This document shows, piece after piece, positions 1,612-12,302 of a stretch of DNA of 12,505 bases. The notes under the pieces are model-generated. The model did not search any database and was not told the DNA's origin. It saw nothing but the letters and a program-made list of their open reading frames with translations. The position numbers were made by a program, and so were the translations under genes. The DNA comes from Clostridia bacterium. GTDB lineage: Bacteria > Bacillota > Clostridia > Oscillospirales > CAG-272. Numbering within the stretch: the first letter of the stretch is position 1; the number at the start of each line of letters is the position of its first letter. The DNA lies in contig JAKSPW010000021.1 of assembly GCA_024404435.1 (NCBI GenBank), forward strand, positions 1-12,505, read 5' to 3'.

Positions 1612-1637
1612 CCGCACCCGGAAGGGTGCGGCTTTTT
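1612..1637 (+). terminator. Intrinsic terminator after the SLH gene
   Basis: An 8-bp GC-rich stem (ccgcaccc / gggtgcgg) with a GGAA loop is followed by CTTTTT, starting 18 bases after the SLH stop codon. It should insulate the phage-like operon from read-through and marks its left edge. Confidence 0.93.
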
Positions 1638-1692
1638 CAGTTCGGGCTTTTGTCACTCTTTTTCTTATTTCGGTGCAAAATTTTACAAACGC

Positions 1693-1721
1693 TTGACAGA
1701 ACAAACGTTCGGTGATATAAT
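1693..1721 (+). promoter_or_regulatory. Consensus sigma-A promoter of the phage-like operon
   Basis: TTGACA at 1693-1698 and TATAAT at 1716-1721 both match the housekeeping consensus exactly and are separated by the ideal 17 bases. Transcription should start near 1728. Such a strong promoter would need tight repression, which the two LexA boxes at 1698-1711 and 1735-1748 can supply. No other promoter of comparable quality was noticed before the closing terminator at 12277-12302. Confidence 0.9.
1698..1711. promoter_or_regulatory. LexA/SOS box 1, inside the promoter spacer
   Basis: GAAC-AAAC-GTTC (core 1699-1710) fits the Gram-positive LexA (DinR) consensus CGAACNNNNGTTCG except for the outermost left base. 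It fills most of the spacer between -35 and -10, so bound LexA would block RNA polymerase. Confidence 0.8.
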
Positions 1722-1734
1722 CATGTGCAAGAAA

Positions 1735-1748
1735 CGAACAAATGTTCG
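1735..1748. promoter_or_regulatory. LexA/SOS box 2, just downstream of the expected start site
   Basis: CGAAC-AAAT-GTTCG is a perfect match to the Gram-positive LexA consensus CGAACNNNNGTTCG. It begins about 7 bases after the expected transcription start. Its centre lies 37 bp from that of box 1, about three and a half helical turns. Confidence 0.85.
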
Positions 1749-1767
1749 GATTTTGAGGAGGATGCGG

Positions 1768-1965
1768 ATGACTGACACCGAACGGCACGGAGTGCCCGTG
1801 ACGCGCTGCAACGGATGCAGCGAGCCCGTCTATTCGGGCGATCTTGCTTACCTGATAAACGACGGCACTTACTGCACCGCCTGCGTTGCCGACTCTCTTT
1901 ACGTCGTCGATGCGGCCGACTTCGCTGACTTCTCCGAAGAAGCAGTATCGTATTCTGACGTTTAA
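1768..1965 (+). CDS. Small Cys4 zinc-ribbon-like protein
   Basis: A 65-residue protein with CxxC at C14/C17 and CxxC at C36/C39. The layout CNGC-x6-GDLAYLINDGTYC-x2-C is that of small single-zinc proteins often seen in clostridial prophages; their function is unknown to me. The tail (residues 45-65) is acidic. The start is set by GAGGAGG at 1755-1761, six bases before the ATG at 1768; the ATG at 1762 touches the Shine-Dalgarno and is unlikely. It is the first gene after the SOS promoter, with a leader of only about 40 bases, so it should be made early and strongly on DNA damage. It could bind nucleic acid or a protein partner; the sequence does not decide. Confidence 0.75.
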   Translation: MTDTERHGVPVTRCNGCSEPVYSGDLAYLINDGTYCTACVADSLYVVDAADFADFSEEAVSYSDV

Positions 1966-1984
1966 CGAATGAAAGGAGATCAAT

Positions 1985-2320
1985 ATGAACTATATGATGA
2001 GAAGCGCAAGGGAGTCCCTCAGGGGACACGCCTGCAGGAAGAATTCACTTGAATGCATGAAGCGTCTGATGGACGGCGGAGACACCTCTCTCGCCGACAG
2101 ACTCAAATCGGCAAAGGCTCAGGTCGACGCTGTCGAGTACGCGATGTCCTCTCTCTCGGAGGAGAACCGCGACGTGCTGCGCGAGTTCTACGTCGCGCAC
2201 GACGGCGAGTCGATCGACAGACTGTGCAGGAAATACTGCTGCAGCGTCAGCACGGTCTACAGGATGTGCCGCGATGCGCTTCGCACCTTCACGATGACGC
2301 TGTACGGCAGGGCGGAATGA
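1985..2320 (+). CDS. Sigma-region-4-like / ArpU-type phage regulator
   Basis: A 111-residue protein with an N-terminal basic helix, a central helix around residues 40-65 containing a 'VEYAMSSLSEENRDVL' segment, and a C-terminal helix-turn-helix at about residues 76-100 (IDRLCRKYCCSVSTVYRMCRDAL). This layout is shared by sigma-70 region 4 and the short ArpU/RinA-type late-gene activators found just upstream of terminase genes in Firmicutes phages, which is exactly its position here. AAAGGAG at 1972-1978 gives a well-spaced start. By analogy it may bind the host polymerase or DNA and raise late transcription, but here it lies inside the same operon, so a direct role on the operon promoter would be feed-forward. 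It could instead be a DNA-recognition partner of the terminase. Function is inferred from fold and position only. Confidence 0.72.
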   Translation: MNYMMRSARESLRGHACRKNSLECMKRLMDGGDTSLADRLKSAKAQVDAVEYAMSSLSEENRDVLREFYVAHDGESIDRLCRKYCCSVSTVYRMCRDALRTFTMTLYGRAE

Positions 2321-2327
2321 GGTCGCC

Positions 2328-2693
2328 GTGAACGGAAATATCACGAAAAAGCAGAAGAAGGTCGCGCTGCGGCTCGTGTTCGACGATCCGTCGCTCAGCC
2401 TTGAGGGCATCCTTGCCGACGAGGGCGTGACGACGGAGAAATACGCCGCATGGCTCGCTGACTCCGACTTCACCCGCTTTCTCGGGACGGTCTCGAAGAA
2501 CGCCGCCGAGGCGGGAGGCGCGAGGATCGTCGCCTCTCTCAGCGAAAAATGCCGCTCCGGCGAGACGAGTGCGCTCAAGGCGTATTTCGACGTTCTCGCC
2601 AAGCTGAAGGCGCACGGAGAGGACGCCTGTGCCGCCGACGACGGGATAGAAGCCGTGCGGCGCGAGATCTGGGGGGACGTGAGCTCTCCGTGA
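2328..2693 (+). CDS. Terminase small subunit (TerS)
   Basis: A 121-residue protein that probably recognises the DNA to be packaged and hands it to the large terminase. Residues 5-20 are basic, about 24-48 form a likely helix-turn-helix (SLEGILADEGVTTEKYAAWL), and 52-95 are helical, ending in a GETSALKAYFDVLAKL segment typical of phBC6A51-type small terminases. It starts at a GTG eight bases after the previous stop, with GAGGT at 2319-2323 as ribosome binding site, and its stop overlaps the start of the large terminase (GTGA), suggesting translational coupling. Assignment rests on helical pattern, size and the adjacent TerL; small terminases diverge quickly, so family naming is less secure than the role. 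Confidence 0.8.
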   Translation: MNGNITKKQKKVALRLVFDDPSLSLEGILADEGVTTEKYAAWLADSDFTRFLGTVSKNAAEAGGARIVASLSEKCRSGETSALKAYFDVLAKLKAHGEDACAADDGIEAVRREIWGDVSSP

Positions 2694-4036
2694 GTGCGTA
2701 CCTCTTCGGTGAGAAGCACAAGTCGTACATGAGGCGGTGCTTCGAGTGCACCGTGAACGTCGCCGAGGGCTCGGTCCGCGCGGGAAAGACCGTCGACCAC
2801 GTCTTCGTCTTTGCGGCGCTGCTCGAGACCTCACCGGACAGACTTCACCTTGCGACCGGAGCGACGGCGGCTTCCGCAAAGCTCAATATCGGCGACTGCA
2901 ACGGCCTCGGGCTCGAGGCGATCTTCGGCTCCCGCGCCTCGTGGGGGAAATACCGCGGGAACGAGTGCATGAGGATCAGGACGAGGACGGGCGAGAAGAT
3001 CGTCATTTTTGCGGGCGGCAAGAACGCCGACTCGTTCAAGAGGATCCGCGGAAACTCCTACGGGATGTGGATCGCGACGGAGATAAATCTCCATCACGAC
3101 ACGATGATAAAGGAGGCGTTCAACAGACAGCTCGCCGCGAAGGGAAGACGCATTTTCTGGGACCTCAACCCGTCCTCGCCGGACTCCTTTATCTACACGG
3201 ATTATATCGACCTGTACGCGAAGAAGGCGGAGCGCGGCGAGGTGGGCGAAAACTTTTTCAATTACGGGCATTTCACGATCTTCGACAATCCCGCGGTGCC
3301 GCGGGAGAGAGTCGCGGAGATCGTCTCGCAGTACGACGGGGATTCCGTCTGGTACAGACGCGACATCCTCGGAGAGAGGTGCGCCGCTGACGGGCTCGTC
3401 TATCCGTTCTTTGCAAACAACAGGGAGAAGATCGTCGTGAGCGGCGTGCCTTCGGAGGACTTTGAGTTCATCAACGTCGGAGTCGACTTCGGCGGCAGCA
3501 GATCGAAGACGACCTTCGTCGCGACGGCGTTCACTCATTCGATGTCGCTGTACGTCGTCGCCGAGCACGCCGTGGCGGGAGGAAAGGGCGAGATCGACCC
3601 GTGCCGGGTAGACCGCGAATTTGAGGAATTTATCAAAGAACTGTCGGAAAAATACGGCGAAGCCTGTCTGCGGTACGCCTTCTGCGACAGCGAGGCGCAG
3701 TACCTCATCAACGGTCTGCGGGCTCACGCGAGGCGCGCCGGGCTCGGCATCACGGTCGGCGAGTGCGCCAAGCGGAGGATAAGAGACCGTATCGACTGTA
3801 CCGGGAAGCTCATGGCATCCGGCAGGTTCTTCGTGAAGGACGACTGCCTGCTCGTGCAGAAAGGGCTTGCCGAGGCACTCTGGGACAGAAGCTCCGCCGT
3901 CGACAAGCGGCTCGACAACTTCACCTCCGACATCGACATCCTCGATGCGATGGAGTATTCTTTCGAGCGATACATGACAAAGCTGGCGGGAAACCCGCCG
4001 GCGGATAATCTGAAAGGAAAGACATGGACAGACTGA
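2690..4036 (+). CDS. Terminase large subunit (TerL), packaging ATPase and nuclease
   Basis: A 448-residue motor that pumps DNA into the procapsid and cuts it. The ATPase half has a Walker A motif GSVRAGKT at residues 27-34, a Walker B-like strand MWIATE ending in catalytic Glu131, and a DLNPSSP coupling motif at 158-164. The C-terminal RNase H-like nuclease has the expected acidic residues: Asp266 (VDFGGSRSKT), Asp333 (FCDSE), and Asp416/Asp419 in SDIDILDAMEY. All catalytic positions look intact and length is normal for SPP1/PBSX-type large terminases. The GTG at 2690 was chosen because it overlaps the TerS stop as GTGA and begins the conserved part; the open frame runs further upstream inside terS, but that stretch is an arginine-rich shadow. 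The 3' end overlaps the portal gene by 13 bases. Confidence 0.95.
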   Translation: MSAYLFGEKHKSYMRRCFECTVNVAEGSVRAGKTVDHVFVFAALLETSPDRLHLATGATAASAKLNIGDCNGLGLEAIFGSRASWGKYRGNECMRIRTRTGEKIVIFAGGKNADSFKRIRGNSYGMWIATEINLHHDTMIKEAFNRQLAAKGRRIFWDLNPSSPDSFIYTDYIDLYAKKAERGEVGENFFNYGHFTIFDNPAVPRERVAEIVSQYDGDSVWYRRDILGERCAADGLVYPFFANNREKIVVSGVPSEDFEFINVGVDFGGSRSKTTFVATAFTHSMSLYVVAEHAVAGGKGEIDPCRVDREFEEFIKELSEKYGEACLRYAFCDSEAQYLINGLRAHARRAGLGITVGECAKRRIRDRIDCTGKLMASGRFFVKDDCLLVQKGLAEALWDRSSAVDKRLDNFTSDIDILDAMEYSFERYMTKLAGNPPADNLKGKTWTD

Positions 4037-5436
4037 TACTTGACTATCTTGAAGCAAAATACAAGGTCACGCCTCCACGCGCGTTCTACGCCGAGATCGC
4101 GAAGTGGGATGCGTGGCGGCGCGGCTTCTTTAAGCCGTTCCACGAATTTTCCGAGAACGGCGCGGGCGGCTTTCCGGTAAAAAGGGAGCTGTACCGCCTC
4201 AACATGGCGAAAAAGATCTGCGAGGACTGGGCGACGCTCATCCTCGCGGACAAGACCGTCGTCACCTCCTCCGACTCCGCCGTCGCGGAATGGCTCGGCG
4301 GCGCGGACGGCGAGCACGGCTTCCTCGGAGAGCAGAAATTCATCAAAAATGCCGCAAGGCTCGTCGAGAAGGCGTTCTCGCTCGGCACGGGTGCGGCGAT
4401 CCTGCGCATCGACGGCGTGACGCTCGACGGCGGGTACCTCACGGGGTGTCCTGAGGCACGGCTCGGCACGGTCTTTGTCGACGCGGAGCACATCGTGCCG
4501 ATCAGCACAGAAAACGGAAAGATCACCGAGGCGGCGTTCATTTCCGAGTCGATGCGGGACGGCATCCCGACGGTCTACGTCGAGATCCACCGCAGGGGCG
4601 CGGACGGCTACGTCATCACGAACGAGCTTCTGAAGAGAGAAAACGGCGAGCTCATACCGGACAAGCTGCCGCGCGGCGTGGCGGGAGAGGTCAGAACGGG
4701 CACCTTCGTCCCGTTCTTCGCGATCCTGAAGCCGAATCTGACGAATCACGTCGACGAGTCGTGCGGCCTCGGCGTTTCGGTCTATGCCCAGGCGACGGAC
4801 TGCCTCAAGGGAGTCGACCTCGCCTTCAACAATTTCTGCCGCGACCTCAAGCTCGGCGGCAAAAAGGTCTTCATGAACAGAAATCTCGTGATGCGCGACG
4901 GAAACGGGACGCTCTACACTCCCGACGACGTGGCGCAGCAGCTCTTCGTGACCGTCGGCGACGGCGATCTCGCGGAGGAGACGATGATCACGGAGCACAA
5001 TCCCGATCTCCGCACGAAGGAGAACGCCGAGGCGGTGCAGAGTCAGCTCGACTATCTGTCGTTCAGATGCGGCATGGGCACGAGGCAGTACCTCTTCTCG
5101 GGCGTGCAGGGAAAGGCGCAGCTCACGGCGACACAGTACACGGGCGAGAGGCAGGACCTCATCCAGACGACGGCTCACCACCGCATCAACGCCTGCGAGT
5201 TCATCTCGGATTACGTCCGCGCGGCGCTCACGGCGGCAGTGAAGGTGCTTTGCCTTCCGCTTGACGCATCGGCTCCCGTCACGGTGAACTTCGACGACAG
5301 CTATTTCATCGATTCCGAGTCGCAGAGGGCCCGCGACAGAGAGGAAGTGGCGGCGGGGCTCATGAAGCCGTGGGAATTCAGGATGAAATGGAGAGGCGAG
5401 AGCGAAGAGCGCGCCAGAGCCATGACGGAAGAATAA
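4024..5436 (+). CDS. Portal protein, SPP1 gp6-like
   Basis: A 470-residue subunit of the dodecameric ring at one capsid vertex, through which the terminase pumps DNA and to which the neck attaches. Family hallmarks include RELYRLNMAKKICEDWATLI near residues 54-73, a 'GLGVSVYAQATDCLKGVDLAFNNF' region near 248-271 followed by RDLKLGGKKVFM, and a late FRCGMGTRQYLF...TATQYTGERQ segment at about 347-377, matching the conserved 'GLG...TATE' stretch of gp6-like portals. AAAGGAAAG just upstream of the ATG at 4024 supports the start, and the 13-base overlap with terL suggests coupling. No SPP1 gp7-like minor head gene follows, which is unusual for this family. Confidence 0.92.
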   Translation: MDRLILDYLEAKYKVTPPRAFYAEIAKWDAWRRGFFKPFHEFSENGAGGFPVKRELYRLNMAKKICEDWATLILADKTVVTSSDSAVAEWLGGADGEHGFLGEQKFIKNAARLVEKAFSLGTGAAILRIDGVTLDGGYLTGCPEARLGTVFVDAEHIVPISTENGKITEAAFISESMRDGIPTVYVEIHRRGADGYVITNELLKRENGELIPDKLPRGVAGEVRTGTFVPFFAILKPNLTNHVDESCGLGVSVYAQATDCLKGVDLAFNNFCRDLKLGGKKVFMNRNLVMRDGNGTLYTPDDVAQQLFVTVGDGDLAEETMITEHNPDLRTKENAEAVQSQLDYLSFRCGMGTRQYLFSGVQGKAQLTATQYTGERQDLIQTTAHHRINACEFISDYVRAALTAAVKVLCLPLDASAPVTVNFDDSYFIDSESQRARDREEVAAGLMKPWEFRMKWRGESEERARAMTEE

Positions 5437-5534
5437 TTACCGAGGGATATGCGTCAGGACGGTTTCGGACCGGGAAAAAGATGGGACGGGCGGGCATCGG
5501 ACGCAGAAAAACGAAAAAGCGAAAGGAGAAGAAA

Positions 5535-5981
5535 ATGACGAAAATCAGTGAGATCTTCGGGGGAAGATCGCTGAGCGCGGAGGAATTCGAGGCGGCTCTC
5601 GCCGGATCGGGGTATTCTCTCTTCGGCGCGGAGGAAAAACGCGCGCTCGAAAAACGCCTCGAGGAGCAGAAGGCCGAGTTCGAGTCGGAGCTGACGCGCT
5701 CCCGCGTGAGCGCCGCCCTGAAGTACGAGCTGAAGCGCCGCGGAGCGCACAACGTGTCCCTTGCGGCTGCCGCGATCGGGATCGACGGCTTTGCAGGGGA
5801 CGAAAAAGATGCAGAAGCCTTTGCGGAAGAAAAGGTCGAAAAATTCAGGCGCGAGGAGCCTTATATGTTCGCGGATGCGAAGGGCTCTCCCGTGTCCACG
5901 GGCGCCTCTCACGGTGAGAGCGCACCCGACACAGACAGTATGAGCGACAGCGAATACTACAACTACATCAAAATCAACTGA
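5535..5981 (+). CDS. Capsid scaffold protein (GP20-like)
   Basis: A 148-residue highly charged protein expected to fill the procapsid and guide coat assembly, then leave. Residues 32-56 form a likely coiled coil (EEKRALEKRLEEQKAEFESE), followed by a segment with ALKYELKRRGAHNV at 61-74 typical of phage GP20/scaffold proteins, a disordered Ser/Asp/Gly stretch at 115-137, and a C-terminal MSDSEYYNYIKIN. A 'MSDxEYY' tail recurs at the end of Firmicutes scaffolds, probably the coat-binding helix. The ATG at 5535 has AAAGGAG six bases upstream; the open frame runs back into the portal gene but that part is a shadow. Placement right before the coat gene supports the role. Confidence 0.85.
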   Translation: MTKISEIFGGRSLSAEEFEAALAGSGYSLFGAEEKRALEKRLEEQKAEFESELTRSRVSAALKYELKRRGAHNVSLAAAAIGIDGFAGDEKDAEAFAEEKVEKFRREEPYMFADAKGSPVSTGASHGESAPDTDSMSDSEYYNYIKIN

Positions 5982-5995
5982 GAAAGGAAAATACA

Positions 5996-7102
5996 ATGTC
6001 AAACTCGTTTATTTCAGTAAAGCAGATCGCGCGTGAGACTCTCCCGAGACTCATCGACAACCTCGTCTTCCCGAATCTCATTTACAGAGACACGGCAGGC
6101 GCGGGCGCTGCAAAGAAGGGCGACACGGTCGCGGTACGCCGTCCCGTGAAGCTCACCGCAAGAGAGTTCTCCGAGAACGACGGCGTCACCGCCGAGGGCA
6201 TCACCGAGGAATGCGTGAACGTGAAGCTCGACAAGATCGCGACGGTCGACGCGGAGGTCTCCGCACTTGAGAGTGCGCTGAGCTTCGACTCCGTCACGCG
6301 TCTTTTCATCGAGCCCGCGGCTGCGGCTCTCGCAGAGAAGATCAACAACGACGGTCTGTCCCTCTATGCCGACGTACCGTACGTCGCCGGAACGGCAGGC
6401 ACGACTCCCGATGCTCTCGCGGACTTCTCCGCGGCGGCTCTCGCGCTTGACAACAACCGCGTGCCGACCTCGAAGAGATGCGCGGTCTGGGACCCGACGG
6501 CAAGCGCCGCCTTCAAGCAGATCCCCGCTCTCGTGAACGCCGAGAAGTGCGGCACGACGACGGCTCTCAGAAGCGGCTCCATCGGTGAGGTCTTCGGCAT
6601 CTCCAACTACATGACTCAGGCGGTAAAGAGCCACACCGCCGGCACTCTCGCTCCCGCGAGCGGAAACATGACGCTCTCGGAAGCGGCGAGCGCATCAAAC
6701 AGCGTCAAGATCACCGGCACCACGCTCACCGGAACGCTCAAAAAGGGCGATATCCTCACCGTCGGCGGCAAGACCTGCACCGTCACCGAGGATGCGGCGG
6801 TCGCCGACGGCACGATCACGGCGAAGGTATATCCCGCGATCACCGCGTCCTCCGGCGCTACCGTAACGCTCACCGGAAGCCACAAGGCCAACCTCGTCTT
6901 CCATCCGGACGCATTCGCGTTCGTGACGCGTCCGCTTTCCACTCCCGCCGGAGTCGAGAGCTACGTCACGACCTACAACGGCATCTCGCTGAGAGTGGTC
7001 CGCGGCTACGACATGAAGTACAAGAGAGAAATGCTCTCCATGGACGTGCTTTATTCGTTCGCAACGCTCTATCCGGAGCTTGCCTGCCGTTACCTCGGCT
7101 GA
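5996..7102 (+). CDS. Major capsid (coat) protein, P22-like
   Basis: A 368-residue HK97-fold coat subunit of the P22 coat-protein family. The N-terminal region has IARETLPRLIDNLVFPNLIY and KKGDTVAVRRP, equivalent to the N-arm and E-loop region. Residues 211-297 form a beta-rich insertion (ILTVGGKTCTV, ATVTLTGSH) in the place of the P22 'I-domain'. The C-terminus has MLSMDVLYSFATLYPELACRYLG, close to the 'DVLYG...P..A.R' ending of P22-type coats. There is no protease gene and no cleavable N-terminal region, consistent with P22-like assembly on a separate scaffold. AAAGGAAAA before the ATG gives a good start, 14 bases after the scaffold stop. This should be the most abundant product. Confidence 0.92.
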   Translation: MSNSFISVKQIARETLPRLIDNLVFPNLIYRDTAGAGAAKKGDTVAVRRPVKLTAREFSENDGVTAEGITEECVNVKLDKIATVDAEVSALESALSFDSVTRLFIEPAAAALAEKINNDGLSLYADVPYVAGTAGTTPDALADFSAAALALDNNRVPTSKRCAVWDPTASAAFKQIPALVNAEKCGTTTALRSGSIGEVFGISNYMTQAVKSHTAGTLAPASGNMTLSEAASASNSVKITGTTLTGTLKKGDILTVGGKTCTVTEDAAVADGTITAKVYPAITASSGATVTLTGSHKANLVFHPDAFAFVTRPLSTPAGVESYVTTYNGISLRVVRGYDMKYKREMLSMDVLYSFATLYPELACRYLG

Positions 7103-7110
7103 TAGGAAAA

Positions 7111-7473
7111 ATGGCACGGTTTGATTACTCGTACTATAAGGAGATCTACGGCGGCGAGCTCTCCGAGAGGGAATTCGATCGCTTTTCGCTTACCGCCGCC
7201 GACGTCGTGTCCGTTCTCACGGGCACGGACGTCACCGAATCCGACGACGAGTGCGTGATCCGCGCTCTCTGCATCGAAACGGACGAATGTGCCGGATTTG
7301 CCGGAGGCAATCCGTGGACGGAGGCCGAATCCGCGGGAGACTACTCCGCGTCGTACGACACGTCGCGGGTGAAGGACGTCTGCGGCATGCCCGTCTCCGC
7401 AGGAGCGATAGCGGCGCTTACGAGATGCGGACTGCTCACGAGGTGGTCGGGATGGGGAAAAGAGAAACCGTGA
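7111..7473 (+). CDS. Head-tail connector / DNA-packaging adaptor
   Basis: A 120-residue adaptor expected to bind under the portal ring and close the packaged head. The pattern YYKEIYGGELSEREFDRFSLTAADVV at the N-terminus, a helix with CVIRALCIETDEC at 48-60, a YSASYD strand near 78-83, and an ending LTRCGLLTRWSG matches the short helical connectors (gp6/gp15-like) that follow coat genes in Firmicutes phages. GGAAAA precedes the ATG, eight bases after the coat stop. Its end is overlapped by the next gene, pointing to coupled translation. Family naming relies on pattern and position. Confidence 0.82.
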   Translation: MARFDYSYYKEIYGGELSEREFDRFSLTAADVVSVLTGTDVTESDDECVIRALCIETDECAGFAGGNPWTEAESAGDYSASYDTSRVKDVCGMPVSAGAIAALTRCGLLTRWSGWGKEKP

Positions 7474-7799
7474 CGCTTTTCTGCCCCGTGGGTGAGGCGG
7501 ATTTCGGAACGGTCTGGAAAAGATACGTCCTGCGCGGCGTGATCTATGAAGAAAAACGGCTCCTCTCGGGGTGCGAGGCGACTCTGTACGCGGACGGATG
7601 TACCAAGTCCTTCTGCGGCGGCGGTGTCTCGCCGTTCCCCGCGATCGTGCCGGGATGCGCGGTGTCGAGAGGAGTTGTCGGGGAAAAAGAGCGCTATTCG
7701 GGCGCTCTCCCCGACGCCGAAGTGCTGAAGGTCGTGTCGGTGAGCTCTCACCGGCGCGGCACTCCGCGCCTGTGGCACGTCAGGGCGGATCTCGGATAA
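7452..7799 (+). CDS. Minor capsid / head-closure protein
   Basis: A 115-residue protein of the minor capsid family found after the connector in clostridial and lactobacillal prophages. It has the family's start, VTLF...GTVWKRYVLRGVIYEE, and its typical ending, VSVSSHRRGTPRLWHVRADLG (compare 'RGS..MRHW.V' in relatives). It probably forms the head-closure ring between connector and tail. Two starts are possible. The ATG at 7452 has GAGGTGG at 7440-7446 with five-base spacing and was chosen. The GTG at 7470 overlaps the previous stop as GTGA with GGGGAAA nine bases upstream, and would drop six residues. The ATG overlaps the preceding gene by 22 bases. Confidence 0.78.
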   Translation: MGKRETVTLFCPVGEADFGTVWKRYVLRGVIYEEKRLLSGCEATLYADGCTKSFCGGGVSPFPAIVPGCAVSRGVVGEKERYSGALPDAEVLKVVSVSSHRRGTPRLWHVRADLG

Positions 7800-7813
7800 C
7801 GGAGGTGAGCGAA

Positions 7814-8539
7814 ATGACGGATAATTACGACGGCATCCTCGAAGAGCTCTGCGCATCTTTTTCGGAGGAGCTCGGAGCAGACGGTGCCGTGAAGCCCTGC
7901 GCCGTCCCGTTCCACGGGAACGGAAGATGCCTCTTTATCGGGCTGTCAGGCGTCGGAGAGGAAAAGCGGAAGTATATCGACGGTTCTTCGTCGGTGGATA
8001 TCCCCTTTGATCTGAAGCTGCGCTTCCGCGATCTTTCTCCGTCCGACAGACTCGACGCGGAGGCGTTCATCGAGAACTTTCCTCTGCCCGACGGCGTGAG
8101 TCCCGCGGGAAGCCCGACGATCAGGTCGGGGGCGGGGAGCCTTTCCGAGTGCTCCCGACGCTTCACGGCACGTCGGCTGACGGCGGGCGACACGGACGTC
8201 GGCTTCGAGCTCGGGCTTCAGAGCGGGACGTGGACGGCGCCGGGCGCGGGATTCATCGCTTTTTCGCTCACCGAAAAGGCCGACACGTCCTCTCACAGAT
8301 ACGTCGGGGAGGACGAGACGCTCACAAGCGTCGACGGAGTCGCGTACTATGCTGACGCCGAGATCGTGCCGGTGACGGCAGCGGCGGCGGAGGTAGCATC
8401 TCTCACGGTCGGAGGCACGCTCCCCGTCAGGAGAGCGGGAAAGATCATCACTCTCGTGTGCATCTTCCGTGAGGAGGAAGCGGGAAAAGTGAAGATGAAA
8501 TTTGCGTCAGGCGCAAAAACGGAGGAGGAAAATGAATAA
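7814..8539 (+). CDS. Tail-completion-like protein with unusual C-terminal domain
   Basis: A 241-residue protein with two parts. Residues 1-95 resemble tail terminator/completion proteins: an N-terminal helix, a strand pair with CLFIGLSGVGEEKRKYIDGS, then VDIPFDLKLRFRDLSPSDRLDAEAFIENF, matching the 'YIDGS...PFEL.LR...D..R.DA' pattern. Residues 110-230 are beta-rich, with SGTWTAPGAGFIAFSL near 137-152, a motif more like those in tail fibre or virion-decoration proteins. I do not recognise this half. GGAGGTGA at 7801-7808 fixes the start. The gene overlaps the distal tail gene by eight bases. In ordinary siphoviruses the tail tube, chaperone and tape-measure genes lie between these two; none fits here. 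It may be a natural fusion, a deletion joint or a short-tail neck protein. Confidence 0.68.
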   Translation: MTDNYDGILEELCASFSEELGADGAVKPCAVPFHGNGRCLFIGLSGVGEEKRKYIDGSSSVDIPFDLKLRFRDLSPSDRLDAEAFIENFPLPDGVSPAGSPTIRSGAGSLSECSRRFTARRLTAGDTDVGFELGLQSGTWTAPGAGFIAFSLTEKADTSSHRYVGEDETLTSVDGVAYYADAEIVPVTAAAAEVASLTVGGTLPVRRAGKIITLVCIFREEEAGKVKMKFASGAKTEEENE

Positions 8540-9395
8540 GGTCTACTGCATAACGGTGAAAAACTCCGTCGCGGCGCTGAATCTGTCTCCGCTTTCCGTC
8601 TGCCGCCCGATCGAGGGAGGGCTCGTCGGCTTCGACGCTCCCGAAACGGGCGCCCGTTTCGCTTCGGACGGATTCGGAGACGGAGGGTATGCGCTCGACA
8701 CGGGGATACCTCCGCGGGAGCTTTCGCTGACCTTCGAGGTCACGGACAAGGCGTACTTTGAGTCTGTGAGAGCGAGCGCGATAAGGCTGATGAATCCGCA
8801 CGAGGAGGCAACGCTGACGGTCACGCTCACCTCGAGGCACAGAAGCATCAGGGCTTATCCGTGCGGTGTACCGGAGTTTTCGACGGGTGGCACGGGCTGT
8901 CCGCTGAAAATAAAAATGAGCTTCACCGCTCCGTCACCGTTCTTCTCGGACGGCGAGTGGATAAGACTGAGCCTTCCCACGAATGTGCCGCTGCTCTCCT
9001 TCCCGTTCAGCCCGATGGCGGGCGCGGGAACGGTGTGCGCCATGGCGCAGAGCAGCACGTACACGGCGAAGATCACGAATCCCGGCGACGTTTCCTGCGG
9101 ATTCATCGCCTCGCTCAGGGCGGTGCACGGATCCGTCGACTCGCCGTACGTCTCGATGAACGGCCACTTCGTGAAATTCGACGACGTGATGCTTCGCGGA
9201 GACAGCCTGACCGTCGACACGCGCCGCGGCTCGAAGGGGCTGATCTGCAACGGCACGCGCAGGTATTCGTTTACACGCGACAGCACGTTTTTCTCCCTCG
9301 GGCCGGGAGAGAACACGCTCACGTTCTCGGCTGAGGACAACCTTCAGAATCTCGAGGTGTCGGTCAGATTCGTGCCGCTTTATCTCGGCGCGTGA
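8532..9395 (+). CDS. Distal tail protein (Dit, Sipho_tail family)
   Basis: A 287-residue protein expected to form the hexameric ring at the tail tip that carries the hub and adsorption proteins. The N-terminal barrel has IPPRELSLTFEV at about 59-70, and the domain ends with LKIKMSFTAPSPFFSDGEW at 125-143, the signature 'F.A.dPf' of Dit proteins. The C-terminal galectin-like domain (about 175-285) shows YTAKITNPGDVSCGF, LRGDSLTVDTRRGSKGLICNG and FFSLGPGENTLTF, all in the family order. The ATG at 8532 has GGAGGAGG three bases away and overlaps the previous gene by eight bases. In long-tailed phages Dit sits on a tube; no tube gene is present in this cassette. Confidence 0.87.
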   Translation: MNKVYCITVKNSVAALNLSPLSVCRPIEGGLVGFDAPETGARFASDGFGDGGYALDTGIPPRELSLTFEVTDKAYFESVRASAIRLMNPHEEATLTVTLTSRHRSIRAYPCGVPEFSTGGTGCPLKIKMSFTAPSPFFSDGEWIRLSLPTNVPLLSFPFSPMAGAGTVCAMAQSSTYTAKITNPGDVSCGFIASLRAVHGSVDSPYVSMNGHFVKFDDVMLRGDSLTVDTRRGSKGLICNGTRRYSFTRDSTFFSLGPGENTLTFSAEDNLQNLEVSVRFVPLYLGA

Positions 9396-9404
9396 GGAGG
9401 GAAA

Positions 9405-10406
9405 ATGGAGCTTTATTTTCTTGATTCCGCCTTTGAGTGCGTCGGGATCGCGGAGCGCATCACTTATCTGCGCCACGCGAGGCGGTTTTTCGCTCCGTCG
9501 GAGCTTGAGATGACGCTTGACTGCGGAGTGTCCGACGTGCCCGCGGAGGCGAAGTACGTTTTCGACACGGAAAGTGCGGAGTGTACCGTCATCGACGGGA
9601 TGACGGTCGAGGCCGGAGTCGGCGTCACCGTTTTCGGCAGAGGCGCGGAGTCTCTGCTCGAGAGGCGGATCGTCGCCGCGGAGGACGTGTATTCCGGACC
9701 CGTGGAGTCCACGGTGAGAGGCGCCGTCTCCGCCGCCTTTTCGGGAAGCCGCTCGTTCCCCGGCATCATGCTCGGGGACGAGTGCGGGATAAGCGATTCC
9801 GTGGTCATCCCGGTCTGCTGGGACGGGCTGTCGGAGTTCGCGTACTCGACGCTGCTCCCATTCGGCGCGTCTTACAGAGTCAGGCTTCCCGTGGGCGGCA
9901 CGAAGCTCGTCTTCGAGGTCGTGCGCGGGACCGACAGAAGTCTCTCTCAAAACGCCGTCGCGCCGGTCGTGTTTTCGGATGCTTCCGACGGGCTCGCAAA
10001 CGGCAGATTTACGAGAGACTTAAAAAAACATAAGAATACCGCGATAGTCGTCGGCAGCGACGGGACCGCGGTCACGGTGAGCATCGGCTCGCCCACGGGG
10101 GAGAACCGGCGTGAGCTCTTCGTGAGCGCGAAGGACCTATTCCCTGCGAGCTTCGGAACGTCGGGCGCGTATCAGGAGGCGCTTCGCTTCCGCGGCAGGA
10201 GAGAGCTTTACAAAAAGCTTGCTGAAAGCGAGTATCGCGGAGACGTCGTGAACGGGCCGGACGCCGTGTTCGGAGCCGATTATTTCCTCGGAGACACGGT
10301 GGAGCTCGTCATCGGCGGCGTCTCGAACGCGGTGAGGATGACCTGCGCGACTCTCACCGTAAAAGACGGAGTAAGGACGCTCGTGCCGTCGTTCGGCACG
10401 GTGTGA
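9405..10406 (+). CDS. Tail hub, ReqiPepy6 Gp37-like protein
   Basis: A 333-residue protein of the Gp37-like tail family, expected to form the trimeric hub below Dit that opens for DNA release. Family features in order: FLDSAFECVGIAERITYLRHARRFFAPSELEMTL at the N-terminus, VTVFGRGAESLLERRIV at about 74-90, a central CWDGLSEFAYSTLLPFGASYRVRL region, then LVFEVVRGTDRS, and a C-terminal FGADYFLGDTVELVIGG domain. GGAGGG at 9396-9401 precedes the ATG, nine bases after the Dit stop. No peptidoglycan hydrolase domain is attached, unlike many Tal proteins, so local wall degradation at infection is not encoded here. A run of seven A's at 10022-10028 is in frame and does not break the gene. Confidence 0.85.
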   Translation: MELYFLDSAFECVGIAERITYLRHARRFFAPSELEMTLDCGVSDVPAEAKYVFDTESAECTVIDGMTVEAGVGVTVFGRGAESLLERRIVAAEDVYSGPVESTVRGAVSAAFSGSRSFPGIMLGDECGISDSVVIPVCWDGLSEFAYSTLLPFGASYRVRLPVGGTKLVFEVVRGTDRSLSQNAVAPVVFSDASDGLANGRFTRDLKKHKNTAIVVGSDGTAVTVSIGSPTGENRRELFVSAKDLFPASFGTSGAYQEALRFRGRRELYKKLAESEYRGDVVNGPDAVFGADYFLGDTVELVIGGVSNAVRMTCATLTVKDGVRTLVPSFGTV

Positions 10407-10419
10407 CGGAAAGGAAAAA

Positions 10420-10920
10420 ATGAACGTATTTTCAAATGAGACAATAACCGGAGGACCGTACGACTCGACGTCCGTCGTCGGGACCGTGAACGGCTTTCCG
10501 CGAGGCAACAACGCCGTCGACTCGGCTTTCGTCGCGTCGATGATAGACAGTCTTATCACGGGCGGCGTCGTCGGAGACGGATTCTCCGTATACGCCGCCG
10601 GCGGGCTCGGCGTCACGGTCAGCCCGGGCGTCGCCTGGGGAAGAGGACGCATGTCACGGCTCGATTCGGCGAAGCGATACGAGCTCGTCGCGGGATACAC
10701 CTACAGCTTTGTCGTGAGGTTTGCCGCCGACGACAACACGTCGCGGCTCGTCGTCATCGCGGACAGCGTTCCGTTCTCTCCGCTTCGCACGGAGTCGACC
10801 TACGACCTCGTGATCGCAAGCGTGAGAGTGCCTGCGGGGACGGAGACGGTCACGTCTTCCATGATCACCGACAGGCGCGCGGCCGCCTCGTCCTGCGGAC
10901 GCGTGACCTCAAAGATTTAA
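10420..10920 (+). CDS. Short baseplate/fibre adaptor protein
   Basis: A 166-residue protein corresponding to the N-terminal adaptor domain of Firmicutes tail-tip or receptor-binding proteins. It has GFPRGNNAVDSAFVASMIDSL at 25-45, a turn with ITGGVVGDGFSVYAAGG, the strand VTVSPGVAWGRGRM at 65-78, and an ending YDLVIASVRVPAGTETVTSSMITDRR, the usual 'LA.V.VPAGA..I....I.D.R' pattern. In many relatives this block is followed by a long receptor-binding or fibre region. Here the protein stops right after the 'SSCGRVTSKI' segment, so no receptor-binding domain is visible. The role as adaptor attaching something to the hub is inferred. AAAGGA upstream of the ATG supports the start; the hub gene ends 13 bases before it. 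Confidence 0.75.
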   Translation: MNVFSNETITGGPYDSTSVVGTVNGFPRGNNAVDSAFVASMIDSLITGGVVGDGFSVYAAGGLGVTVSPGVAWGRGRMSRLDSAKRYELVAGYTYSFVVRFAADDNTSRLVVIADSVPFSPLRTESTYDLVIASVRVPAGTETVTSSMITDRRAAASSCGRVTSKI

Positions 10921-10932
10921 ACGGCATATAAT
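10903..10932 (+). promoter_or_regulatory. Possible weak promoter before the lysis genes
   Basis: A perfect TATAAT at 10927-10932 lies in the longest intergenic gap of the late part of the operon. GTGACC at 10903-10908 is a poor -35 (four matches of six) with an 18-base spacer. It could give extra transcription of holin and endolysin, but the -35 overlaps the end of the upstream gene and may be chance. Confidence 0.25.
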
Positions 10933-10935
10933 GTT

Positions 10936-10962
10936 CACGGGAGAGCTTCGTACTCTCCCGTG
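10936..10962 (+). other. Stable hairpin in the holin leader
   Basis: A perfect 10-bp stem (cacgggagag / ctctcccgtg) with a seven-base loop CTTCGTA. It is not followed by a U tract, so it is not a standard intrinsic terminator. It ends seven bases before the holin Shine-Dalgarno (GGAGG, 10970-10974). It may set mRNA processing, stability or holin translation. Confidence 0.7.
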
Positions 10963-10977
10963 TCGGGACGGAGGACA

Positions 10978-11418
10978 ATGAAAAAAACGGTAATCGGTGC
11001 CGCGGGCGCCGTCGGAGGCTTTATCATGACGCTTTTCGGCGGCTGGACGACGGCGATGACGACTCTCGTCATCTTCATGGGGATCGACTGGATCTCCGGC
11101 ATGATATGCGCGGGTGTCTTCAAAGCGTCCGACAAGACGGAAAACGGCGGACTTTCGAGCAAGGTCGGCTTCCGCGGACTTTCAAAAAAATGTATGATCC
11201 TTCTTTTCGTGCTCGTCGGAACGAGGCTCGACCTCATATTCGGAACGCCGTTCGTCAGGGACGCGGTCTGCATCGCGTTCATCCTGAACGAGCTCATTTC
11301 GATAATCGAGAACGCGGGACTCATGGGAGTCCCCGTGCCGAAGGTGATGGCGCGGGCGCTCGACATTCTGCAGGACGATAAGAAAATCGGAGGAAACGAA
11401 AATAAAAATAATGCTTGA
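10978..11418 (+). CDS. Phage holin, Holin_4 / Cp-1-like family
   Basis: A 146-residue membrane protein that permeabilises the cell membrane and lets the endolysin reach the wall. Hydrophobic segments lie near residues 5-21, 24-47, 72-90 and 95-112. Family features are the VIFMGIDWISGMICAGVFKA segment, then LSSKVGFRGLSKKCMILLFV, and the C-terminal FILNELISIIENAGLMGVPVPKVMARAL block, all in the usual order for clostridial holins of this family. The ATG at 10978 with GGAGG three bases upstream was chosen; the GTG at 10960 would place the start inside the leader hairpin. The last eight bases overlap the endolysin's first ATG, so the two are probably translated together. Confidence 0.9.
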   Translation: MKKTVIGAAGAVGGFIMTLFGGWTTAMTTLVIFMGIDWISGMICAGVFKASDKTENGGLSSKVGFRGLSKKCMILLFVLVGTRLDLIFGTPFVRDAVCIAFILNELISIIENAGLMGVPVPKVMARALDILQDDKKIGGNENKNNA

Positions 11419-12277
11419 TCCCGGTCATGCGGGCAACACTTACAATCAGTCCACGGTCATCGCGGACTATTACGAATCGAACATGACGTGGACGCTCGCC
11501 GCGAAGCTGAAAAAAGCCCTTGAAAAGCACGGCTTCGAGGTGGGGCTGACGAGGGGAACGAAGGACGAGGATCCGGAGCTGACGGAGAGGGGAAGACGTG
11601 CCCGCGGGTACGATCTTTTTCTCTCGCTCCACTCGAACGCGTCGTCCGACCCCGCGTCGCGCTCGCCGTGGCTCATCCACTTCTCTCCCGACGGGAAGAC
11701 CGATCTCGACGAGAGAAGCGAGGCGGCGGCGAGGGCTCTCGGCCCCGTGATCTCGCAGGTCATGGGGACCACCGCACCGTTTTACTACACGAAGCCGACG
11801 GACTTTGACCGCGACGGCAACGGATACGTCGACGACGAGTGGTACGGAGTTCTGTTCGGAGCGAAGAGCGTCGGAGTGCCGGGCGTGATACTCGAGCACA
11901 GCTTCCACACGAACGCCGAATCGACTCTGTGGCTGATGGATGAAAAAAACCTCGACGCTCTCGCGGAGGCAGAGGCTGAATGTCTCGCAAAACTGTTCAA
12001 AACGGAGGACGAAGAAATGACGGAAGCCGAAAAAAAGGCTTTTTCGGAGCTTTCCGCGAAGGTGGATAAGCTCGAAAAGAGAGTCACGGCTCACCACGAC
12101 CAGATCGGCGTGAAGTGGGCATACGTCGACGAAAATCTGCCCGACTGGGCGGCGCCGACGGTGAAAAAGCTCGTGCAGTCCGGCATCATCAAGGGGAACG
12201 GAAAGAACTCGTTCGAGCTGTCTTACCTCCTCATGAGGATACTCGTGATGCTCGACCGCGCGAAAATATTTGACTGA
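11411..12277 (+). CDS. N-acetylmuramoyl-L-alanine amidase endolysin (Amidase_3)
   Basis: A zinc amidase that cuts the bond between N-acetylmuramic acid and L-alanine in peptidoglycan, releasing particles after holin action. Numbering from the ATG at 11411, zinc ligands are His6 (LDPGH), Glu22 (ESNMTW) and His74 (LSLHSNA); the catalytic Glu is Glu162 (LEHSFHTN). Residues 202-226 form a likely coiled-coil linker, and 240-288 are an SLH-like half repeat (LPDWAAPTVKKLVQSGIIKG...LLMRILVMLDRA) common at the end of clostridial phage amidases and probably wall-binding. There is no signal peptide, so export depends on the holin. The ATG lies 17 bases after the only Shine-Dalgarno (GGAGG, 11389-11393); in-frame ATA at 11402 has ideal spacing and would restore the first strand as MKIMLDPGH, so the true start is uncertain. 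Confidence 0.92.
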   Translation: MLDPGHAGNTYNQSTVIADYYESNMTWTLAAKLKKALEKHGFEVGLTRGTKDEDPELTERGRRARGYDLFLSLHSNASSDPASRSPWLIHFSPDGKTDLDERSEAAARALGPVISQVMGTTAPFYYTKPTDFDRDGNGYVDDEWYGVLFGAKSVGVPGVILEHSFHTNAESTLWLMDEKNLDALAEAEAECLAKLFKTEDEEMTEAEKKAFSELSAKVDKLEKRVTAHHDQIGVKWAYVDENLPDWAAPTVKKLVQSGIIKGNGKNSFELSYLLMRILVMLDRAKIFD

Positions 12278-12302
12278 AAAACCACCCGAAAGGGTGGTTT
12301 TT
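12277..12302. terminator. Intrinsic terminator closing the phage-like operon
   Basis: A 7-bp GC-rich stem (accaccc / gggtggt) with a GAAA loop is flanked by A's on the left and TTTTT on the right, directly after the endolysin stop. The A/T symmetry means it could also stop transcription arriving from the minus-strand gene suspected at the right edge. Confidence 0.93.

Follow-up and report, generated by a model that had tools for sequence, protein, structure and literature searches.

A compact phage-derived gene cassette of Clostridia that may encode a gene-transfer-agent-like particle with a stub tail

The described systems with which the element analysed here can be compared are the gene transfer agent (GTA) of Rhodobacter, RcGTA; PBSX of Bacillus subtilis, a damage-inducible, host-borne particle with a long tail; tailocins, which comprise tail genes without head or packaging genes; and the prophages of temperate siphophages, which carry integrase and replication genes as well as a tape measure and tail chaperones. 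Here, we analyse a 12,505-base stretch of DNA (the window), the complete contig C124 of a Clostridia genome that is 80% complete, in which the gene calls give a compact particle cassette of 15 plus-strand genes (1762-12277), no intergenic gap being longer than 98 bases and coding sequence making up 98% of the span. Compared with RcGTA as generally described, the cassette has a P22-type coat in a clostridial host, LexA-type boxes at its promoter and, in the lineage of the window locus (W), a tail terminator fused to the tail tube and neither tape measure nor chaperones. It resembles PBSX in being host-borne and putatively damage-inducible, with two conserved LexA-type boxes that suggest SOS-type control and a terminase whose nearest NCBIfam model is that of the PBSX family (97.6 bits, below the cut-off of 105), but it lacks a long tail with a tape measure. 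Unlike tailocins, it encodes a terminase, portal, scaffold and coat, and unlike siphophage prophages it has no recognisable integrase or replication gene, while the tape measure and chaperones are absent in W and shortened in relatives. Comparison of folds with solved structures covered that of g10. We propose, with a probability of about 0.65, that the cassette is what remains of a prophage, no longer mobile and passed on vertically, which its host both keeps and uses: a DNA-damage-induced, GTA-like particle with a stub tail.

A first-pass annotation of the window, made from its letters, had described 15 same-strand genes under one consensus promoter between two strong terminators, and gene calls, folding and a 12/12 promoter match bear this out (Table 1); neither border hairpin's folding energy was equalled in 200 shuffles. 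Family searches covered all 15 window proteins with Pfam, ten (Dit, hub and bpp included) with PHROGs and nine with NCBIfam. Models from these collections name a terminase, portal, scaffold, P22-type coat, connector, Dit, hub (Sipho_Gp37), holin and amidase, in agreement with the content first assigned, and they recognise no tape measure, tail chaperone, integrase or replication gene in the window, which is the whole contig, again as first described. The promoter is the sole perfect sigma-70 match in the window, and the motif GAACN4GTTC occurs there exactly twice (1699 and 1736), both times at this promoter. Across the seven loci of the window's genus (g1), TTGACA-17-TATAAT is present in all, the second box is exact in all and lies 36-37 bases from the first, and the spacer box is exact in six, with one mismatch in L019. 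Four loci of the genus g76 (L049, L054, L056 and L058) likewise have exact boxes ahead of the terminase, and at the remaining six of that genus the boxes in this position are all imperfect. These boxes suggest putative control of the cassette by LexA.

The first-pass annotation had also stated that the cassette lacks a tail tube. This holds for a separate tube gene, but a tube domain survives within g10 (7814-8539). Profile comparisons with seven fused proteins, together with the AlphaFold model obtained for the copy in genome G005 (locus L019; predicted local distance difference test score, pLDDT, 85; 27 rows), place terminator and tube-domain folds in this gene, the same folds as in lambda gpU, the SPP1 tail tube and PDB entry 11ok. 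Whereas the terminator and tube of siphophages are separate proteins, those of g10 form one polypeptide. The structural statement is based on the G005 copy because the model of W g10 reaches a pLDDT of only 46 (7 rows). When aligned singly by hhalign, the fused proteins of W, L017, L014, L018 and L019 scored 22, 21, 0.3, 95 and 98% against the tube profile and 96, 43, 27, 55 and 93% against the terminator profile; W, L017, L014 and L018 combined scored 75% and 95%, respectively. Control profiles (one chaperone, two neck proteins and a minor capsid protein) gave at most 0.7%, except for L019 against the connector ad1 (8.9%). Residues 136-184 of W g10 matched phrog_3099 at E 0.12, the terminator profile matched no solved structure by sequence, and single hub and Dit sequences had no match among solved structures at E ≤0.1. 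The profiles and the G005 model show g10 as a predicted terminator-tube fusion, not merely a neck protein, in which one ring's worth of tube would remain. The reading frames of g10 and Dit share 8 bases (8532-8539), an overlap already reported and confirmed by the gene coordinates. An assembly artefact was ruled out as the source of the fusion, because five species, and separately L071, L147 and L148, have the fused frame open, and so was a contig gap at the g10/Dit junction, where both frames overlap.

The search for the same block in related genomes that had been suggested at the outset recovered the terminase in six of the 11 other genomes of the genus (64-69% identity) and the coat protein in those same six (71-75%). 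A coat match in G004 (E 8.5e-5, 25% identity) was left out of the count, and G003 is only 55% complete. Gene order is the same in all six, and the block is thus present in 7 of 12 genus genomes. Five of the seven carriers (W, L014, L017, L018 and L019) have a fused g10 and neither chaperones nor a full tape measure. In four of the six relatives no tube, chaperone or full tape-measure gene separates the fused g10 from Dit, but in L015 and L016 the tube and the chaperones still have genes of their own at this place, along with a tape measure of 147 residues. Such relatives had been named beforehand as evidence for a deletion peculiar to W; they exist, but a lone deletion was ruled out for the window because the reduced state is common to five species and the trees agree with vertical descent from long ago. 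The endolysin is present at all seven genus loci and a separate holin was called at four, with none called in L014, L018 and L019. In the wider family, coat matches were found in 24 of 295 genomes (16 strong, one at 30% identity in G264 and seven weak), the strong ones being confined to three genera, namely g1, its sister genus g64, and g76. Coat carriers number 7 of 12 genomes in g1, 16 of 25 in g64 and 7 of 9 in g76, each with a single copy.

Full-tailed relatives provide the reference for this reduction. In Mogibacterium pumilum (L086) and Clostridium nigeriense (L089), prophages carry coat proteins of the same family (58% and 56% identity), and L086 has the same gene order as the cassette: connector, gp10, terminator, tube, chaperones, tape measure, Dit, hub. 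Unlike W, L086 has a 958-residue tape measure and L089 an unlabelled 795-residue protein at that place. Between these lengths and none, the tape measure takes many values: many g64-like loci have one of about 258-262 residues and a few one of 236-237, g76 loci range over 213-330 (the lower value, from L050, comes from a separate gene call, another call merging this tape measure with Dit), and the length is 147 in L015 and L016, 113-121 in L064, L105 and L160, 48 in L071, L147 and L148, and 47 in L049. Those of L105, L160, L071, L147 and L148 carry no profile label and were recognised from where they lie and from their C-terminus. A C-terminal pattern like SPYxxAxxxRRxSE is retained in the short forms, and what is left in L019 is 53 residues long, with TPYGRIRRIRKQGEE. 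When the junction was searched by pattern, a peptide of this kind was present in L019, L015 and L049 and absent from W, L014 and L018, looser matches in L017 and L019 running into stops.

Parsimony requires five changes between short and long tape measures over 41 loci (L058 and L098 excluded), seven if both of these are scored as short and five if L058 is scored as long, and two changes for the terminator-tube fusion on the 43-locus tree. That tree was built on five other cassette genes from 43 of 179 sequences: the 58 with all five genes, minus 19 with a duplicate coat protein, plus four with fewer genes. The direction of change is taken to be loss because the relatives are full-tailed, the parsimony count itself giving no direction. 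The second fusion lies in the g64 clade (L071:11757-12608; L147:5608-6399; L148:5458-6309), whose loci retain one chaperone and the 48-residue tape-measure remnant; L071 and L148 have identical coat proteins and are identical in the proteins shown. The first-pass annotation had seen the reduced tail but missed both the fusion and the graded, repeated nature of the reduction. We think it fairly probable that these are host-owned DNA-packaging particles in which a long non-contractile tail was dismantled stepwise into a podovirus-like stub made of siphovirus parts, still under selection and working without a tape measure. The tape measure, at first about 260 residues long, would have shrunk by way of 147 and then about 115 to a remnant of 47-53 (the C-terminal tip peptide only) and lastly to none, while chaperones were lost and the terminator and tube merged twice independently. 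Two further loci show unusual arrangements in this region. At L058 (12732-14196), the tape-measure region consists of three short frames before Dit, a frame break or a sequencing error, and in the distant relative L098 (12394-13712) Dit comes immediately after the tube, chaperones and tape measure both being absent.

Purifying selection, which had been proposed as a test of whether the block is a working system, is evident in the relatives. Over nine pairs of related loci, no labelled gene exceeded 0.44 in its ratio of nonsynonymous to synonymous substitution rates (dN/dS), some ratios being rough because dS exceeds 1 for those genes. In the L015/L016 pair the ratio was 0.14 for the 147-residue tape measure and 0.03 for the helix-turn-helix gene. 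Terminase and portal are among the most conserved cassette genes, and six large-terminase residues that are presumably those of the nuclease (D266, D333, E335, D414, D416 and D419) are at least 95% conserved over 40 loci, the window included. As in a GTA, the particle genes appear from these comparisons to be kept intact by selection. The view that the cassette is a functionless prophage decayed by one internal deletion, which the first-pass annotation had listed as an alternative, draws on the absence of tube, chaperone and tape-measure genes at one spot where two relatives have them, but it has to account for five species that share the reduced state with open frames, for dN/dS far below 1 in related pairs, and for a reduction that is graded and repeated, with a fusion that arose twice by parsimony; we regard it as largely refuted and very improbable.

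We next consider whether the cassette moves. Tyrosine integrases were found in 25 of 26 carrier genomes and resolvases in 21, but neither PF00589 nor PF00239 was found on the cassette contigs (12-151 kb) of the 17 carrier genomes in which that contig could be matched, in keeping with the earlier statement that no integrase accompanies the cassette. By contrast, the coat gene lies about 21-22 kb from an integrase in the Mogibacterium and C. nigeriense prophages (the C. nigeriense contig being matched by size and position); three full-tailed relatives were checked, of which C. tertium could not be placed. Across 25 carriers, distances in the rpoB tree track those in the cassette tree (Mantel r 0.947, reached by none of 2000 permutations), and 15 of 22 splits are common to both trees, with rpoB partial in G000 and G327, G326 dropped for want of rpoB and G327 dropped from a 56-genome tree for its short rpoB. 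The 43-locus cassette tree pairs L014 with L018, as does rpoB. On the 56-genome rpoB tree, whose g64 side comprises carriers only, the g1 and g64-like carriers form one clade with support of 100 and the four cassette-free genus members form one clade beside L015/L016, so that their lack of the cassette is consistent with a single loss. Third-position G+C content of the cassette follows that of rpoB (r 0.91, n 25), W deviating most (0.81 against 0.68, with partial rpoB). In two species (L014 and L017) the cassette lies near shared upstream yidC-like and jag-like genes; a yidC homologue is about 9 kb away on the cassette contig in G005 and on another contig in G000. These data suggest that the cassette is encoded in the host chromosome and inherited vertically, as a GTA would be. 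A small integrase-less phage or helper-dependent satellite still moving between hosts would fit the coat relatives common in viral_contigs (95 confirmed, 80 kept), some of them full-tailed, the spread over three genera with gaps between, and two well-supported splits that conflict with rpoB. The overall tree agreement, the single copy per genome, the matched base composition, the lack of a recombinase on 17 contigs and the yidC/jag neighbourhood common to two species speak against such mobility, and the viral contigs may be host DNA called viral; we consider this explanation improbable.

Under the proposed GTA-like reading, DNA damage would inactivate LexA and free the promoter at 1693, and all 15 genes would be expressed. 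Terminase, portal, scaffold and coat would then make heads, and the DNA packed into them would be any that the terminase takes hold of, probably that of the host; one g10 ring would close the neck, with Dit, hub and adaptor seated directly on it without a tape measure, and the particles would leave the cell through the action of holin and amidase. It is the protein families that point to the packaging of host DNA, to release and to delivery; particle formation, host-DNA cargo, delivery, LexA control and change by loss are what we infer from the genes. The particle would need no measured tail to function because tape measure and tube length are lost while head, neck, Dit and hub remain open and conserved. 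The compact DNA-damage-induced particle first suggested for this locus is supported by the shared block, the low dN/dS in relatives and the absence of a recombinase, GTA-likeness being the inferred part. A different use of the same genes would be a PBSX-like defective phage serving as a weapon, whose SOS-induced particles pack host DNA and kill relatives, through binding or damage to the wall, but deliver no genes. If injection were no longer required of the particles, losing the tape measure would make sense, and its repeated shortening, the conservation in the genus of the two LexA-type boxes and the tail-tip module, the endolysin at seven and holin at four of seven loci and the PBSX-family affinity of the terminase, though below cut-off, agree with it; yet in PBSX the tail is long, whereas here it is the part that was lost, and terminase and portal would be odd genes to find among the most conserved in a weapon. 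We regard the weapon as unlikely, and gene transfer is favoured over killing.

Several observations weigh against the GTA-like reading. So short a tail may be unable to deliver DNA. The tube half of W g10 is short and weak alone (22% by hhalign, E 1e-3), its model is poor, and saturation between W and L017 leaves dN/dS unmeasurable in W's own fused lineage. The absence of a tape measure applies to the window, the remaining genome not having been searched for one. With respect to descent, two splits with support of at least 86 on both sides are in conflict between the trees: G086+G137+G295 (97 in the cassette tree, 93 against it in that of rpoB) and G000+G010 (cassette, 86) against G009+G010 (rpoB, 95). 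Independent gains or losses are possible because the coat gene is absent from 9 of 25 genomes of g64 and the rpoB tree sampled, within g64, carriers only, and because g76 is placed elsewhere in that tree its cassette was either gained separately or lost many times in between.

If the GTA-like reading is true, the range of GTA-like elements includes a group of gut Clostridia not yet cultured, with control of the LexA type, and natural intermediates between a measured tail and no tail are available within a single family. The need for a tape measure and tail tube would become testable for a particle that is not required to spread by itself, as would the route from a siphovirus tail to a podovirus-like stub, and the cassette would offer a natural test of the minimal tail required by a DNA-carrying particle. 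If the tail was dismantled stepwise, particles of the gene-transfer type can do their work with no tape measure at all.

Table 1. Features of the cassette and its borders in the window
Feature	Position	Strand	Basis or remark
Terminator hairpin of upstream S-layer-domain gene; left border	1612..1631	+	-19.6 kcal/mol, z -4.0
Promoter TTGACA-17-TATAAT, with LexA-type box GAACN4GTTC (1699) within spacer	1693..1721	+	12/12 match
Second LexA-type box	1736..1747	+	37 bases downstream of first box
Small protein with Cys pairs, zinc-ribbon-like	1762..1965	+	Weak Pfam matches below cut-offs; labelled in 7/7 genus loci
Small helix-turn-helix protein, sigma-region-4-like, possible regulator	1985..2320	+	Weak, below cut-offs
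Small terminase subunit	2328..2693	+	Position and PF13022
Large terminase	2690..4036	+	Pfam, PHROGs, NCBIfam
Portal	4024..5436	+	phrog_533, E 2e-82
Scaffold	5535..5981	+	PF06810
P22-type major coat protein; possible Ig/TIG-like insertion (weak match)	5996..7102	+	Pfam, PHROGs
Head-tail connector (ad1)	7111..7473	+	phrog_541
Neck/stopper-like protein (g9)	7452..7799	+	Named by position; no significant Pfam/PHROGs match
g10, tail terminator fused to tail-tube domain (predicted)	7814..8539	+	Profiles, hhalign, AlphaFold model of G005 copy
Distal tail protein Dit	8532..9395	+	PHROGs, Pfam
Baseplate hub, Sipho_Gp37 type	9405..10406	+	PHROGs, Pfam
Virion structural protein (bpp), tail-tip adaptor by position	10420..10920	+	phrog_9534, E 1e-16
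Holin	10978..11418	+	PF05105
Endolysin: amidase_3 with C-terminal S-layer-homology-like stretch	11411..12277	+	Pfam
Terminator hairpin; right border	12278..12302	+	-18.8 kcal/mol, z -4.8

The best PHROGs matches of bpp are filed under head and packaging; it has no Pfam match and is conserved across the genus loci. PADLOC returned zero matches for five small or unnamed proteins. Among phage records, 72 had a coat match, all below 60% identity, the top-ranked being Gordonia phages at 39%. The S-layer-homology-like stretch of the endolysin recalls the upstream gene (17-1594), which also has an S-layer domain, and a possible convergent minus-strand gene has its end at the contig edge (12459-12505).

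Smaller blocks occur outside the three genera. L123 (6784-14075) runs from terminase to tube and then to a 360-residue tail-protein-like gene, with no match to Dit, chaperone or tape measure, followed by a DUF6273 gene and acetate kinase; L128, L130 and L135 have similar gene calls. Six related compact blocks (L124, L127, L129, L131, L132 and L121) have a terminator, a tube, in five of the six a chaperone-like gene (138-157 residues), and after that a protein of about 350 residues, tail-protein-like in L124, with no Dit match. L084, L090, L099, L104 and others share the coat family and have tape measures of about 190-214 residues, with a different distal module (about 115 and 700 residues).

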